Shown here piece by piece: positions 6,627 through 23,212 of a DNA stretch of 35,103 nt (positions within the stretch are counted from its first letter, which is position 1; each line of letters begins with the position of its first letter). The translations under genes and the position numbers were made by a program. The DNA is from Candidatus Aminicenantota bacterium (GTDB lineage: Bacteria > Acidobacteriota > Aminicenantia > JAMOAD01). The notes beneath the pieces were generated by a model, which saw only the letters and a program-made list of their open reading frames with translations, did no database searches and was not told where the DNA came from. The DNA lies in contig JAMOVU010000102.1 in the NCBI GenBank assembly GCA_027067555.1, positions 1 through 35,103 on the forward strand, read 5' to 3'.

Positions 6627-6656
6627 TTGACATAGTTACTATTAAAGTGATATTAT
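6627..6656 (+). promoter_or_regulatory. Sigma70-type promoter of the NifX/MinD-ferredoxin cluster
   Basis: A perfect TTGACA (6627-6632), an 18-base spacer and TATTAT (6651-6656). The expected start near 6663 leaves a leader of about 30 bases containing AAGGAGG (6681-6687) before the ATG at 6693. I saw no sigma54-type -24/-12 element here. Confidence 0.65.
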
Positions 6657-6692
6657 AGTCCGAAAAATTAAAATCCTTTGAAGGAGGATAAA

Positions 6693-7088
6693 ATGAAAAT
6701 TTTTGTCACATCAACGGGGGAAAACCTTGAATCAACGGTTGATCCAAAGTTTGGTAGATGTAATTATTATATAATCTATGATACTGAAAAAAAAGAATTT
6801 GAAGTAAAAGAAAACCCCTACAAAACCGGTCAATCTTCAGTGGGAATTTCAGTGGCACAGCTTGCAATTAATAACAATTGCTCTGTTGCAATTTCTGTAA
6901 ACTATGGGCCGAATGCTTTCAGGGTTCTCAGTGAGGGCGGAGTTAAAACTTACAAAGCCAAGGAAGATATGAAAGTTAAAGATGCAATTGAAGCATATTT
7001 AAAAGGAGAACTTGAGGAGGTAAATAACCCCGTTTCCCATGAGCAAGCTGAAAAAATTTTCCCCCATCACCACCATCATGATGATTAA
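6693..7088 (+). CDS. NifX/NafY-like dinitrogenase FeMo-cofactor-binding family protein with His-rich tail
   Basis: 131 residues of the NifB/NifX cofactor-binding fold (RNase H-like). The family also includes the orange protein ORP of sulfate reducers. Visible signatures are an early TSTGENLESTVDPKFGRC segment, a strand-helix core, and NYGPNAFRVLSEGGVKTY. After the domain, the protein ends in a short tail with five consecutive histidines and two aspartates, likely to bind metal. I start at ATG 6693, six bases after AAGGAGG; a TTG at 6678 lies upstream of that site and is unlikely. It is the first gene of a six-gene cluster with two ferredoxin-ATPases. No nitrogenase genes are in the window, so nitrogen fixation should not be assumed. 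Confidence 0.88.
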   Translation: MKIFVTSTGENLESTVDPKFGRCNYYIIYDTEKKEFEVKENPYKTGQSSVGISVAQLAINNNCSVAISVNYGPNAFRVLSEGGVKTYKAKEDMKVKDAIEAYLKGELEEVNNPVSHEQAEKIFPHHHHHDD

Positions 7089-7099
7089 AGGAGAAAGCA

Positions 7100-7936
7100 A
7101 TGAAAATAGCAATAGCATCTGGTAAAGGAGGAACAGGAAAAACAACATTTGCAACTCTTTTTGCCCATGCAATAAGACCATCAACCTATGTTGATGCCGA
7201 TGTGGAGGAACCAAACGGACATATATTCTTAAAACCTGAAATTGAGGAGGAAAAAGATTTTTCAGAATTGGTCCCCAAAATAATAGACGAAAAATGCACA
7301 TTTTGCGGAATTTGCGCGGATGAATGCCCTTACAAAGCTCTTGTAATTTTAAAACCAACAAAAAAGTGGCTATTTTTTCCTGAGTTATGCCATTCGTGCG
7401 GAATTTGTGCTTATGTATGTCCGGTAAAGGGAGCTTTAGTGGAAGTACCGAAAAAAAAGGGAGTAATAAGAAAGGGAAAAGCAGGTAATATAAAATTTAT
7501 GGAGGGAATTTTAAACCTCGGTGAACCAACACCTGTTCCTTTGATATCTTCACTTCTAAGAGAAATCGATGAGAAAGATCAAAATGTGATAATCGATGCT
7601 CCTCCGGGGACATCCTGTCCTGTGGTTGAAACATTGGGATTCGCTGATTTCGTACTTTTAGTAAGTGAACCAACACCTTTCGGAATATATGATCTTTCCC
7701 TCGCAGTTGAACTAACAAGAGATTTGAAAAAGCCATTTGCAATAATAGAAAACAAATACAATCCTGATAATCATCTTCTTGAAGATTATGCAAAGAAGGA
7801 AAACATAGATATTCTTTATAGATTGCCTTTCGAAGAGGAAATCGCAAAATCTTACTCAAAGGGTGAGCTTCCTTTTGAAAGGTTTGAAGAGAGCCTTCGC
7901 CAGCTTTATGAGGAGATTAAAAGGAGGGTGAAATGA
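7100..7936 (+). CDS. MinD/Mrp-family P-loop ATPase with inserted 2[4Fe-4S] ferredoxin domain (copy 1)
   Basis: 278 residues. The deviant Walker A motif GKGGTGKTT is at 8-16, and the switch DAPPGTSCPV lies after residue 150. Between them is a ferredoxin insert with two complete CxxCxxCxxxCP motifs: C66, C69, C72, C76 and C97, C100, C103, C107. These are the ATPases encoded in pairs next to NifX-like proteins in ORP clusters and many anaerobes. They probably use ATP to deliver or reshape a metal cluster. Ribosome site AAAGGAG lies just before the ATG, 11 bases after the NifX gene. It overlaps the second copy by four bases (ATGA). The exact cargo is unknown. Confidence 0.92.
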   Translation: MKIAIASGKGGTGKTTFATLFAHAIRPSTYVDADVEEPNGHIFLKPEIEEEKDFSELVPKIIDEKCTFCGICADECPYKALVILKPTKKWLFFPELCHSCGICAYVCPVKGALVEVPKKKGVIRKGKAGNIKFMEGILNLGEPTPVPLISSLLREIDEKDQNVIIDAPPGTSCPVVETLGFADFVLLVSEPTPFGIYDLSLAVELTRDLKKPFAIIENKYNPDNHLLEDYAKKENIDILYRLPFEEEIAKSYSKGELPFERFEESLRQLYEEIKRRVK

Positions 7937-8820
7937 GAGCAAAAGAAATAGTCCTGATAAGCGGGAAAGGTGGAACAGGGAAAACTACAGTAACCTCCTC
8001 CTTCGTCTGGTGGATGCATAATAATAATTATAATTTTGTAATCGCTGATGCTGATGTTGATGCCGCTGACATGCATCTTTTATTAAAACCTCAAATAAAA
8101 AGAAAAGAGTATTTTACGGGAAAATCCATAGCTAAGATAAATACAGAATCCTGCATATCCTGTGATCTCTGTAAGCAATACTGCAGATTTGATGCAATAG
8201 ATATTATTGACGGTAACTATGTGGTCAATCCATTCAGGTGTGATGGATGTGGGCTTTGCAAATTAGTTTGTCCGGTTGATTCAGCAATAGATATGATTCC
8301 GCAAACTGTTGGTGAATGGTATATATCTGACACAAATTCAGGTAAAATGGTTCACGCAAAGCTTTATCCGGGAGCCGAAAATTCAGGAAACCTTGTCACG
8401 ATGGTGAAACATCAGGCTCACTTAATAGCAGATGAAGCAAACATACCATATATTATTGTTGACGGGCCACCGGGAATTGGTTGCCCTGTAACATCTTCTC
8501 TTTCGGGAGCAAGCTATGCTGTTGTGGTTTCAGAACCCACTTTTTCCGCAATTCATGATATGGAAAGAGCAGTTGATACAGCTTTTCACTTCAGGGTACC
8601 TGTCGGTCTTGTTTTAAATAAAGCATCTTTAAATGATAAGAATGCTCAAGCTATTAAAGAATATGCAGAGAAAAAAGGAATTCCATTTTTAGGAAGCATA
8701 CCATTCTCAAAATGCATTGTGGATGCATTGGTTAACGGAAAATTTGCTCTTGAGGGTTGTCCGGAATTAACCGAAAACTTTGAGAAAATATTTAAAAAAA
8801 TATTAGAGGAAGTAAAATGA
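7933..8820 (+). CDS. MinD/Mrp-family P-loop ATPase with inserted 2[4Fe-4S] ferredoxin domain (copy 2)
   Basis: 295 residues, a diverged paralogue of the preceding gene. Deviant Walker A GKGGTGKTT is at 11-19, and the switch DGPPGIGCPV follows in the second half. Ferredoxin cysteines are C74, C77, C80, C84 and C103, C106, C109, C113. The first set is followed by Arg instead of the usual Pro, whereas all sets in copy 1 keep Pro. The region after the ferredoxin (residues 125-160) differs from copy 1 and contains AKLYPGAENSGNLVTMVK, typical of this second type. The consistent pairing of the two types suggests a heterodimer. It overlaps copy 1 and the DUF59 gene by four bases each. Confidence 0.92.
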   Translation: MRAKEIVLISGKGGTGKTTVTSSFVWWMHNNNYNFVIADADVDAADMHLLLKPQIKRKEYFTGKSIAKINTESCISCDLCKQYCRFDAIDIIDGNYVVNPFRCDGCGLCKLVCPVDSAIDMIPQTVGEWYISDTNSGKMVHAKLYPGAENSGNLVTMVKHQAHLIADEANIPYIIVDGPPGIGCPVTSSLSGASYAVVVSEPTFSAIHDMERAVDTAFHFRVPVGLVLNKASLNDKNAQAIKEYAEKKGIPFLGSIPFSKCIVDALVNGKFALEGCPELTENFEKIFKKILEEVK

Positions 8821-9128
8821 GTTTAAAGGATAAAATAATAGAAAAACTAAAAACAGTTTATGACCCTGAGTTAAGGCAGGATGTTATAACCTTAAAACTG
8901 GTTCAAAATCTTCAAGCTGACGATGAAACAGGTGAAGTTTCCCTGACTTTCAGGCCCACTGCATACTTGTGCCCTATAGGAATTCAACTTGCCCTGATGA
9001 TTAAGCAGGCTATATTAAAAGTTGAAGGGGTAAAAAAGGTTGATATGGAGGTTGTTGATTTTGTTTATGCCAAACAGGCAATGGAATACCTTAAACAGCT
9101 TGATGATCAAAAAGAGAAAAAAGATTAA
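8817..9128 (+). CDS. DUF59/MIP18-family iron-sulfur assembly protein
   Basis: 103 residues of the DUF59 fold (SufT, PaaD, Mrp N terminus). It starts with the usual helix and VYDPELRQDVITLKLVQNL, then a strand rich in FRPTAYLCPIGIQLA with a single cysteine in the position of the family's reactive Cys, and ends with a charged tail. DUF59 proteins help load Fe-S clusters on target proteins and are often fused to Mrp ATPases. Here the domain is a separate gene directly after the two MinD-ferredoxin ATPases, overlapping the second by four bases, so it may play the part of the Mrp N-terminal domain in trans. Confidence 0.85.
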   Translation: MSLKDKIIEKLKTVYDPELRQDVITLKLVQNLQADDETGEVSLTFRPTAYLCPIGIQLALMIKQAILKVEGVKKVDMEVVDFVYAKQAMEYLKQLDDQKEKKD

Positions 9129-9141
9129 GGAGGTCTAATAA

Positions 9142-9471
9142 ATGAGCGAGAGAAAGTATATAGCAGTCGGAGTCGGTAAAGATGAAAAATCTATCTGGGT
9201 GGGACATTTTGGAATCTCACCTTTTTACTATATTTATGATGACAAAGGAAACTTATTGGAAAAAAGAGTAAACCCTTATTCAAAGGGACAACATCATGAT
9301 GACCCCAATTTAATTGTAAACTTTTTAAATGATTGCAAAGTTTTCATAGCAAGAAGAATGGGAGAGGAATCAAGAAGAAAATTGGTAGAAAATTTAAATA
9401 TAGAAACATATCTTACAAAAACAAAAGAGGTGGAAGAAGCTGTAAAAGAGTATATTGCCCAAAAGCAATAA
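9142..9471 (+). CDS. NifX/NafY-like cofactor-binding family protein (second copy)
   Basis: 109 residues of the same fold as the gene at 6693: IAVGVGKDEKSIWVGHFG, a YYIYDDKG strand, NPYSKG and a C-terminal helix EEAVKEYI. It has a QHHDD segment in the middle instead of a His tail. It lacks the GxNAxRVL sequence and has RRMGEESRRKL at the matching place. Ribosome site AAGGAGG lies eight bases upstream of the ATG. The two NifX-like genes frame the ATPases and DUF59, which suggests they are two cofactor carriers or two subunits of one complex. The 3' end overlaps the DUF89 gene by 17 bases. Confidence 0.82.
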   Translation: MSERKYIAVGVGKDEKSIWVGHFGISPFYYIYDDKGNLLEKRVNPYSKGQHHDDPNLIVNFLNDCKVFIARRMGEESRRKLVENLNIETYLTKTKEVEEAVKEYIAQKQ

Positions 9472-10336
9472 GTTGAAAATACAGCTTGATTGTATCCCCT
9501 GCCTTTTTAATCAACTTATAAGAACAGGTAAATTTATTTATGGGAATGATATAAACAAGATAAAAGAGCTGATTGATGGTTTTGGTTATCATCTTAAAGA
9601 GATTGACTTTAATTTAACACCTCCCCATGCCGGACAAATACTTTATGATTATATTATTGAAAAATCAGGGATAGAGGACCCTTACGGAAAAATAAAAAAA
9701 GAAAGTATTAATCTTGTTAAAAACAAAAAACCTCTTATGCAAAAAATAATTGATAGTTCATCAGATAAACTCTTAACAGCAATAGAACTTTCAATTCTCG
9801 GAAATATAATAGATTTCGGAGCAACAGAGAGCTTTGATTTTGAAAAAGAGTTGGAGAATCTCAACACAGAGGACTTTAATTTAAAGGATTATAAAATATT
9901 TAAAGAAAAACTCAACAATTCCACTACAATTCTCTTTATAGGGGACAATGCTGGTGAAACAGTATTTGACACATTTCTTTTAAAAGAATTAAAAGACAGA
10001 GGGAAAAACCTTATCTATGCGGTAAGAGAATCTCCTATAATAAATGATGCAACTTATGAAGATGCAATTATGTCAGGAATCGGTGAATATGCAGAAATAG
10101 TAAAACCGGGTCATACCCTCTCTGGACTTGATATAAACTTAACAAACGACAAATTTAGGAATTTATTCTATTCCAGTGATATGATAATAAGTAAAGGACA
10201 GGGGAATTTCGAGACACTTTCCGACTGCAAAAGAGATATATTTTTTCTTTTTAGAGTGAAGTGCAAAGTTGTTTCAGAGCTTTTGAATGAGCCAATAGGT
10301 GAAGCTATTTTACATTATCACTTCCCAAATAATTAA
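9455..10336 (+). CDS. DUF89/ARMT1-like damage-control phosphatase family protein
   Basis: About 293 residues. It has the N-terminal LDCIPCLFNQ sequence of the prokaryotic DUF89 group, the metal/phosphate motif FIGDNAGETVFD around residue 170, RESPIINDAT, and SKGQGNFETLSD near the C terminus. DUF89 proteins are metal-dependent phosphatases that act on damaged or over-phosphorylated metabolites. The start is uncertain: TTG at 9455 (used here, after a weak AAAGAG) or TTG at 9473, which would give the usual short N terminus. It is the last gene of the NifX/ATPase cluster. Its 3' end overlaps the convergent ABC ATPase gene by 32 bases. Confidence 0.85.
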   Translation: MPKSNKLKIQLDCIPCLFNQLIRTGKFIYGNDINKIKELIDGFGYHLKEIDFNLTPPHAGQILYDYIIEKSGIEDPYGKIKKESINLVKNKKPLMQKIIDSSSDKLLTAIELSILGNIIDFGATESFDFEKELENLNTEDFNLKDYKIFKEKLNNSTTILFIGDNAGETVFDTFLLKELKDRGKNLIYAVRESPIINDATYEDAIMSGIGEYAEIVKPGHTLSGLDINLTNDKFRNLFYSSDMIISKGQGNFETLSDCKRDIFFLFRVKCKVVSELLNEPIGEAILHYHFPNN

Positions 10337-21337: not shown

Positions 21338-22705
21338 ATGACAAAGGTTAATATTGTCTTTCTTCTACTTACAAGTCTATTCCTTTTATTTTTCTTTATA
21401 AGCTCAATTTTTGAAAGAGAGAAAAGAGCTGCTATTGTATCCTCCCTTTTCCTTGGAATAAATATCATTTTTTGGTTCGCTTTAATAGAATACAATCATT
21501 TAAAAACAATACTCTATTTAAATAAAATACTGATAATAGGATTTGTAGCATTCATATTTTTATCACTAATAAAATTTTTCCCCGAAAAAGAAAAAGAGGA
21601 TTTAGACAATGTCGAACTTTTTGATGAAAGGGATCACATGTTTTCCAGAAACAATCTTCAATATTACCCGGAGATTATGGGAAAATATTATAAAGATAAC
21701 CCAGATAAAAAAAAGATAGACGAAAAGATACACAAACTTCCTGAGCTTGGAGAGGAGGGAGCAAAATATTATGATCTTTACCATTCAAAAATTGCAGATG
21801 CAAGCTTTAGAATCCTTGATAGAACCACATTTTTGGTAGAAGGAGAACATTCCAAAATTCAGAAGAAGACAGAACCAGAAAAAGTCACGGAAACTATAAA
21901 ATTCATTGCTAAATATTATGGAGCCGTCGATGTTGGAATTACAAAATTAAAACCGTATCATTATTATTCCTATCATGGAAGAAGAGCTGAAAATTGGGGA
22001 GAAAAAATAATACAAAGGCACAAATATGCAATAGTAATAATTGTAAAAATGGATTATGACATGATAAAAAAGGCTCCTACCCTTCCTGTAATCTTGGAAT
22101 CCTCACGCCAATATGTCGAAGCAGCAAAGATTGCTCATATAATAGCAGAATACATAAGAGTATTGGGCTATGATGCAAGGTCCCATGTTGACGGAAATTA
22201 TGAAATAATTGCTGCCCCACTCGCAAGAGACGCAGGGCTTGGAGAAATAGGGAGATTGGGAATATTAATCCATCCAGATTACGGGCCCCGGGTCAGGATT
22301 TCTGCTGTTACAACAAATCTTAAATTGATAGAAAGCCCAAAAAAAGATTTCAACTACATTCAAGAATTTTGTAAATTCTGCAAAAAATGTGCATACAATT
22401 GCCCGACAAAATCCATAAGTCTTGATGATAGACCACCTATAATCAGGGGATTTCGACATTGGAGCATTAAAATGGAGAGCTGCTATGCTTTCTGGAAAAA
22501 AATAGGAACAGACTGTGCTTTTTGTATAAGATCCTGTCCCTTCACAAAAAAGAATACTTTATTGCACAAATTAGTGAGATTTTACATATCAAGAAACACG
22601 ATAAATCAAAGAATTGCACTATTTTTTGATGATATCTTTTACGGTAGAAATTATAAAATTGAAAGCAATAACTCTTCCTCTTTTTCAATATTAAAAAAAT
22701 TCTAA
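21338..22705 (+). CDS. Membrane-anchored reductive-dehalogenase-like corrinoid/Fe-S protein
   Basis: 455 residues. Three hydrophobic helices lie in the first 80 residues, then a domain resembling the catalytic subunit of reductive dehalogenases (RdhA). Visible parts are YYSYHGRRAENWG, GNYEIIAAPLARDAGLGEIGRLGILIHPDYGPRVR in two adjoining pieces, a first cluster motif C345, C348, C351, C355-P, and a second with C382, C393, C396, C400-P preceded by CYAFW. This is the RdhA spacing and lacks the shorter QueG pattern. The twin-arginine signal of classical RdhA is missing and no RdhB gene is present. AGGAGG precedes the ATG. The substrate is unknown, and halogenated compounds are only one possibility. 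Confidence 0.83.
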   Translation: MTKVNIVFLLLTSLFLLFFFISSIFEREKRAAIVSSLFLGINIIFWFALIEYNHLKTILYLNKILIIGFVAFIFLSLIKFFPEKEKEDLDNVELFDERDHMFSRNNLQYYPEIMGKYYKDNPDKKKIDEKIHKLPELGEEGAKYYDLYHSKIADASFRILDRTTFLVEGEHSKIQKKTEPEKVTETIKFIAKYYGAVDVGITKLKPYHYYSYHGRRAENWGEKIIQRHKYAIVIIVKMDYDMIKKAPTLPVILESSRQYVEAAKIAHIIAEYIRVLGYDARSHVDGNYEIIAAPLARDAGLGEIGRLGILIHPDYGPRVRISAVTTNLKLIESPKKDFNYIQEFCKFCKKCAYNCPTKSISLDDRPPIIRGFRHWSIKMESCYAFWKKIGTDCAFCIRSCPFTKKNTLLHKLVRFYISRNTINQRIALFFDDIFYGRNYKIESNNSSSFSILKKF

Positions 22706-22759: not shown

Positions 22760-23212
22760 ATGGAGAAAAGAGATTATAGTAAGATTGTTAGGGAATTAAA
22801 GGATAAGGGTTACACTCTTTCAATGGCAAGAATAGCTATTTTAAGATATGTGATGAAAGAGAACGCCCATTACACAGCTGAAGAGATTTACAAAAACCTA
22901 AAAGAGGAATATCCCACACTTTCTATAGCAACTGTGTATAATACTTTAAAACTATTATCAAAGGAAGGATACTTGCAGCAAATAATGATTGATCCAAATA
23001 AGGTAATCTATGATTCCACCCTTGGAATTCATCCTCACTTTTATTGCAAAGTGTGCGGAAAAATCGAAGATATTAATTCTGACATTAAGATTCAATTAAA
23101 CAAAGAAATTAACGGTAATCGTGTGGAAGAAGCCCACATATATGTATATGGAGTATGTAAGGATTGCCTTAAAAAACAAAAATCAAAAAGAGAATCCTTG
23201 TCCTTAAATTAA
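22760..23212 (+). CDS. perR: Peroxide-sensing Fur-family repressor PerR
   Basis: 150 residues of the Fur family: winged-helix DNA-binding domain (YPTLSIATVYNTLKLLSKEG) and dimerisation domain. The structural zinc cysteines are C96, C99, C133 and C136. The regulatory metal ligands of PerR are all present at the same numbers as in Bacillus: H37, D85, H91, H93 and D104. Asp at 85 is the PerR rather than Fur choice. PerR binds Fe or Mn and loses DNA binding when peroxide oxidises its His ligands. It likely controls defence genes and itself, since a palindrome lies in its promoter. The mRNA appears leaderless. Confidence 0.9.
   Translation: MEKRDYSKIVRELKDKGYTLSMARIAILRYVMKENAHYTAEEIYKNLKEEYPTLSIATVYNTLKLLSKEGYLQQIMIDPNKVIYDSTLGIHPHFYCKVCGKIEDINSDIKIQLNKEINGNRVEEAHIYVYGVCKDCLKKQKSKRESLSLN

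Follow-up and report, generated by a model that had tools for sequence, protein, structure and literature searches.

A NifX/MinD-ferredoxin operon with DUF59 and DUF89 genes in an uncultured Aminicenantes bacterium resembles the orange-protein system

Results and Discussion

A six-gene NifX/MinD operon

We analyzed a 35,103-nucleotide stretch of DNA (here called the window) from contig JAMOVU010000102.1 (C102) of a Candidatus Aminicenantota metagenome-assembled genome (MAG; GCA_027067555.1), focusing on a cluster of genes for two NifX-like proteins, two MinD-type ATPases with ferredoxin segments, a DUF59 protein, and a DUF89 protein. The 2.8-Mb MAG is 97.7% complete, and its closest relatives are Candidatus Aminicenantes MAGs. 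The original prediction, made from the sequence alone, placed a six-gene operon at positions 6627 to 10336, and all six open reading frames (ORFs) were found there on the + strand with scores above the Pfam gathering scores. The ORFs span 6693 to 10336 and begin with NifX1 (6693 to 7088), a NifX-domain protein of the orange protein (ORP)/MTH1175 type, or FGR type (PF02579, 78.9 bits). It is followed by MinD1 (7100 to 7936), a P-loop ATPase of the MinD/ParA type into which a ferredoxin segment for two [4Fe-4S] clusters is inserted (CbiA, ParA, and Fer4), and by MinD2 (7933 to 8820), a distinct second MinD-ferredoxin ATPase with a P-loop and paired Fer4. The last three genes encode a single-domain DUF59 protein (8817 to 9128; FeS_assembly_P, SufT/CIA2-like; PF01883, 48.5 bits), the strongly divergent NifX-domain protein NifX2 (9142 to 9471; PF02579, 46.5 bits), and a predicted DUF89/ARMT1-like metal-dependent phosphatase (9473 to 10336; PF01937, 198.8 bits). 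The start codons of NifX1 (ATG, 6693) and DUF89 (TTG, 9473) were set from orthologues.

The genes form a single, unidirectional operon with gaps of 11 bp (NifX1/MinD1), 13 bp (DUF59/NifX2), and 1 bp (NifX2/DUF89) and with 4-bp overlaps at both MinD1/MinD2 and MinD2/DUF59. A sigma70-type promoter-like site, TTGACA-N18-TATTAT, lies where it had been predicted, at 6627 to 6656 on the + strand; with 11 of 12 consensus matches and a TG before the −10 hexamer, it was the top of 20 promoter matches in the region. Also as predicted, no sigma54-type −24/−12 site with GG and GC at the right spacing was found upstream on the + strand. The order NifX1-MinD1-MinD2-DUF59 was seen in nine Aminicenantes loci, one of which (L008) begins within MinD1 and leaves NifX1 out of view. 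Since this order is kept in other Aminicenantes with MinD2 identity down to 63%, the linkage of the four genes is beyond chance.

Our comparisons covered 142 genomes of the class and a second phylum, that of the genome labeled Spirochaetes bacterium B123_G9, in which 52 of 247 sampled genomes had a strong MinD match; 69 distinct MinD1-MinD2 loci from the two phyla were mapped. Every genome is MAG-level, several loci are bounded by contig ends, and ORF calls are approximate in high-GC loci. A plasmid search for further annotated relatives gave three partial matches only, and Clostridia loci L011 to L013 were rejected as relatives, having matched through ferredoxin motifs alone with no MinD pair.

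An invariant pair of MinD-ferredoxin ATPases

In 69 of 69 pair loci, MinD1 and MinD2 were direct neighbors that shared one strand and kept their order. Natural MinD1-MinD2 fusions of 609 to 621 residues occurred in both phyla (G002, G008, G035, G146, and G370), which suggests that the two proteins most likely act as an obligate heterodimer. Two of the fusion genes lie at L104:8067-9896 (G002) and L112:4476-6311 (G035). Each ATPase carries eight ferredoxin cysteines and one switch-II cysteine after the Walker-B aspartate (Cys173 of MinD1 in DAPPGTSC and Cys184 of MinD2 in DGPPGIGC), all of them invariant; the nine cysteines of MinD1 were invariant across 42 sequences. Two other MinD2 cysteines, C261 and C276, were rejected as cluster ligands; they are kept in the close set, but at 45 to 66% across the class.

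No solved structure of a ferredoxin-fused MinD-type ATPase was found by sequence search. In AlphaFold2 monomer models (MinD1, ma6578340f6a3; MinD2, maa10a3b0ca30), the ferredoxin insert is of low confidence in both proteins. The MinD2 model places this segment between long strands, and its nearest solved folds in Foldseek were MinD, FlhG, the nitrogenase Fe protein (NifH), and ApbC. That MinD gives the top structural match would suit a role in cell division or polar positioning, the function originally suggested for the Desulfovibrio vulgaris ORP complex, which was termed putatively division-related and whose MrpORP protein is polar (PMC6345978). We consider such a role extremely unlikely here, as both MinDs score at most 55.8 bits versus a bacterial MinD cutoff of 212.9, neither MinC nor MinE was found in the operon neighborhood, and the invariant ferredoxin motifs indicate metal chemistry, as do the NifX, DUF59, and DUF89 partners.

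The structural matches also bear on a second alternative, in which MinD1/MinD2 would be a NifH-like reductase that drives low-potential electrons into a client, such as a corrinoid or Fe-S enzyme, in an ATP-driven reductive activation, with the NifX proteins as regulatory or adaptor subunits. Each MinD has a pair of ferredoxin-type [4Fe-4S] sites, and seven residues past its Walker-B aspartate lies an invariant cysteine, at the same spacing as Cys132 of NifH. Nitrogenase and DPOR Fe proteins are numerous among the Foldseek matches. However, NifH has two bridging-cluster cysteines, of which just one has an apparent equivalent here, and no constant client gene was found beside the pair across loci. 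Reductive activation of a client is, in our view, improbable.

NifX proteins and relation to the ORP system

The combination of NifX with two MinD-ferredoxins corresponds to the Orp8, Orp3, and Orp4 components published for the ORP complex (PMC6345978). Like the ORP complex of D. vulgaris, the window operon has a single-domain ORP/NifX protein and two different MinD types with two [4Fe-4S] ferredoxin motifs each, and the two have in common an anaerobic host and an Fe-S maturation logic. Unlike D. vulgaris, which has MrpORP, Orp5, and divergent sigma54 operons, the window operon has none of the three: no MrpORP or Mrp was found in the cluster, and no Orp5-like small [2Fe-2S] protein or further ORF lies within 6693 to 10336. 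Its own extras are the free-standing DUF59, the divergent second NifX, and DUF89. The original description of the cluster as ORP-like therefore stands for NifX1, which is homologous to the Desulfovibrio gigas ORP, and for the core, but the features of a strict ORP operon (MrpORP, Orp5, and sigma54) are missing, and we do not file it as one for this reason. MrpORP (NF041136), a fused Mrp-NifX Fe-S carrier, is missing from the window but lies beside the same MinD pair in locus L093 of the same class.

NifX/NafY carriers of the iron-molybdenum cofactor share the PF02579 fold with the NifX proteins of the window. No nitrogenase genes had been noted near the operon, and homologues always sitting beside nitrogenase had been named as evidence that would count against an ORP-type system; a profile search of the 97.7% complete genome found no nitrogenase component (PF00148) or NifEN, and a nitrogenase context was rejected for lack of PF00148. 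The genome holds five NifX-like domains, three of them outside the operon; moaA scored above the cutoff and modA below it, a pattern that would fit the presence as well as the absence of a Mo-Cu-S cluster like that of the Desulfovibrio ORP.

In the NifX tree, NifX1 (orthologues in L001 to L007 and L009) falls with FGR-type NifX proteins. Its PDB relatives are MTH1175 (1EO1; best, E = 5.3e-18), TM1290 (1RDU), and the D. gigas ORP (2WFB), to which it shows whole-domain homology over residues 2 to 108 (E = 3.6e-12). MTH1175 thus outranks ORP as the best solved match, and it appears on the same cladogram as Pyrococcus furiosus IssA, which was modeled on it (PMC5524996). It is conceivable that both NifX proteins of the operon hold iron sulfide or thioferrate in the manner of IssA, with no special cluster, and that the MinD-ferredoxins and DUF59, itself an Fe-S maturation factor (PMC4982691), mobilize the stored Fe-S for ordinary [4Fe-4S] assembly. 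The His-rich C-terminal tail of NifX1 (PHHHHHDD) could be read in this way, but it is a short His/Asp tail missing outside the window's family, whereas IssA ends in a cationic tail rich in Gly and aromatic residues (PMC5524996). Thioferrate storage also needs no conserved pair of MinD-ferredoxin ATPases, and we judge Fe-S storage and trafficking to be a rather unlikely function of the operon.

NifX2 carries the motifs HFG, GQHHDDP, and DCK and represents a lineage private to the window's family, occurring among the nine Aminicenantes loci in L001 to L003 only. Its branch of 4.6 changes per site prevents placement in the NifX tree. The idea that NifX2 is a stand-alone Di-Nase domain of MrpORP (HFG type) was rejected; HFG is present, but the following cysteine is missing and the protein lies outside that clade.

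Of the 69 pair loci, 65 had a NifX gene no more than 5 kb from the MinD pair. Elsewhere in the window's genome, contig C177 (L049:8302-9766) carries two NifX genes in tandem, preceded by genes for a small Gly/Arg-rich protein and an oxidoreductase of the FAD/NAD type, and in L003 the corresponding NifX pair sits directly upstream of the NifX1-MinD operon. In G100 (L051:4606-5820), just downstream of MinD1-MinD2-DUF6485-NUDIX-DUF89, a gene encodes a cation-efflux (CDF family) transporter with a NifX domain fused to its C terminus; this transporter-carrier fusion may hint at the system's metal. In several relatives, the NifX/MinD cluster has a gene for a Fur-family regulator next to it, at L102:8106-8576 (checked with Pfam), L103:2389-2862, and L109:9499-9960. 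The window has a Fur gene at 22760 to 23212, 12 kb from the operon.

DUF59 and its alternation with Mrp

The PDB relatives of the DUF59 protein are TM0487 (1UWD) and 2CU6. It scored 54.7 bits against the SufT model TIGR02945, below the cutoff of 143.4, and no suf gene adjoins the window operon. DUF59 lies directly after MinD2, mostly overlapping it, in class families f1, f11, and f12 and, in the second phylum, in G346 and G252; it lies ~2.4 kb from the pair in G276, also of the second phylum. Most pair loci are without DUF59 (14 with, 55 without). Mrp/NBP35 was found within 5 kb in 1 of 14 DUF59 loci versus 43 of 55 loci without DUF59 (table 1/13/43/12 for the 69 pair loci; Fisher P = 1.5e-6, a value inflated by kinship). 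In D. vulgaris, MrpORP hands Fe-S clusters to Orp3-Orp4-Orp8 (PMC6345978), and DUF59 proteins serve in Fe-S maturation (PMC4982691). Considering these roles together with the exclusion between DUF59 and Mrp, the simplest reading of the gene patterns is that DUF59 occupies the Mrp position in the cluster. In family f11, genes for an epimerase-type short-chain dehydrogenase/reductase and a DUF1848 protein follow DUF59 (L005:9250-11049; also L007 to L009).

Recurrent linkage of DUF89

The DUF89 protein (PDB relatives 2G8L and 2FFJ) shares PF01937 and the active-site motifs with DUF89/ARMT1 damage-control phosphatases, but the window copy is linked to a metal-cluster operon. Its DN..E, ND, and KGxGNxE motifs and N-terminal CxxC are conserved in at least 95% of 39 homologues, and it scored below the cutoffs of both NCBIfam phosphatase models. 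Characterized DUF89 enzymes hydrolyze fructose-1-phosphate or oxidized 4′-phosphopantetheine (PMC8669784).

DUF89 directly follows NifX2 in L001 and L002, which belong to the same genus. Among the 142 class genomes, 81 carry DUF89, and matching the coordinates of the DUF89 and MinD searches showed that in 10 of these 81, from 5 of 8 families (the window's own genus; G001; G081 and G083; G100; and G123, G126, and G129), it lies no more than 5 kb from the MinD pair. Under uniform gene placement, ~0.4 linked genomes would be expected versus the 10 observed (P = 3e-11; between 2e-10 and 2e-5 when counted by family). In the second phylum, four sampled genomes have an intact DUF89 less than 5 kb from the pair (L167, L174, L181, and L189). 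In the DUF89 tree, the linked copies require five linkage changes, and strongly supported branches force at least four. The order in G123, G126, and G129 is NifX-MinD1-MinD2-Mrp or MrpORP-DUF89; in L093 (G126), a 537-bit MrpORP (NCBIfam cutoff, 450) adjoins MinD2 and is followed by DUF89. Together, the family counts, the second-phylum loci, the tree, and the MrpORP-DUF89 loci tie DUF89 repeatedly to ORP-type clusters.

A chance association of DUF59 and DUF89 with the NifX/MinD core is nevertheless worth weighing, as DUF59 is missing from most pair loci and DUF89 is unlinked in most DUF89-bearing class genomes, including G097 and G098 of the window's family. The counts largely refute it: DUF89 linkage exceeds expectation, changed at least four times, and extends to the second phylum, and DUF59 directly follows MinD2 in three Aminicenantes families as well as in G346 and G252. 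Chance is thus very unlikely. The original prediction had made the standing of both genes depend on their linkage to the core in other genomes, and such linkage was found in related and distant genomes alike. Because both turn up again next to this core in distantly related bacteria, DUF59 and DUF89 are probably true parts of the system. Our search of the open-license literature found no paper tying either one to ORP clusters.

Several further observations concern DUF89 and the neighborhood. A broken DUF89 remnant lies between NifX and MinD1 in G147 of the second phylum (L172:8657-9269), as if recently lost. In family f2 and in G100, DUF89 has another recurrent partner, a gene for a zinc-ribbon NUDIX hydrolase immediately upstream of it (L051, checked with Pfam, and L057, L058, L060, and L061). 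In the window, the 3′ end of DUF89 (+ strand) overlaps by 32 bp (10305 to 10336) with a convergent oligopeptide-transporter ATPase gene (− strand). Farther away, positions 21338 to 22705 encode a 455-residue protein that has hydrophobic helices at its N terminus and a dicluster ferredoxin at its C terminus (Pfam, Fer4_7 only) and that resembles membrane-anchored reductive-dehalogenase-like proteins.

Proposed mechanism and implications

We think the chances are about even that the operon encodes an ORP-type metal-sulfur module in which DUF59 stands in the Fe-S delivery place of Mrp and DUF89 is an optional accessory phosphatase. In such a module, the MinD1:MinD2 heterodimer would couple ATP hydrolysis to the electrons in its four [4Fe-4S] clusters, as NifH or Cfd1-Nbp35 does, and would assemble, reduce, or release a metal-sulfide cluster carried on NifX1; NifX2 would serve as another carrier or as an acceptor. 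DUF59 would act as the Fe-S delivery or maturation factor, in the place held by Mrp/NBP35 or MrpORP in most such clusters. DUF89, a predicted phosphatase, would most likely clear a phosphometabolite that interferes with the cluster or with the client reaction. The eukaryotic cytosolic Fe-S system of Cfd1-Nbp35 and CIA2 offers an analogy only: it too combines two paralogous MinD/Mrp-class P-loop ATPases with a DUF59 protein, but the window MinDs differ in their ferredoxin inserts and in having no CXXC scaffold motif, and there is no sign of common descent as a system.

Several points weigh against an ORP-type module of this kind. The C-terminal CXXC of Mrp/NBP35 scaffolds is absent from both MinDs, each of which has one invariant cysteine outside the ferredoxin segment, so the MinDs may be electron donors rather than scaffolds. 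Kinship among the loci leaves perhaps three to five independent lineages in which DUF59 clusters with the pair. The window's own genome keeps an unfused Mrp on contig C63 (318.5 bits versus the MrpORP cutoff of 450), and DUF59 therefore need not replace Mrp. Most DUF89 genes of the class are unlinked to the pair, and many of the unlinked ones adjoin a NUDIX gene; the tie of DUF89 to the pair is thus recurrent but optional.

A bolder version of the ORP-type module is possible, though we hold it only tentatively: a "split" ORP pathway in which a free DUF59 replaces Mrp/MrpORP and DUF89 is a recurrent functional component in at least two phyla. We found no description of such a pathway in open-license papers. 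If true, it would give DUF89 a role in metal-cofactor chemistry rather than in general metabolite damage control.

The ORP system of anaerobes is already known for its odd metal cluster, and we know of no purpose for it. The strict pairing of MinD1 with MinD2 in many uncultured anaerobes, and their fusion in some of them, makes the mechanism testable in natural single-chain proteins. DUF59 and DUF89 provide two further handles on the system, the former as a putative Fe-S delivery factor in alternation with Mrp and the latter as a predicted phosphatase whose substrate could show what the system protects.

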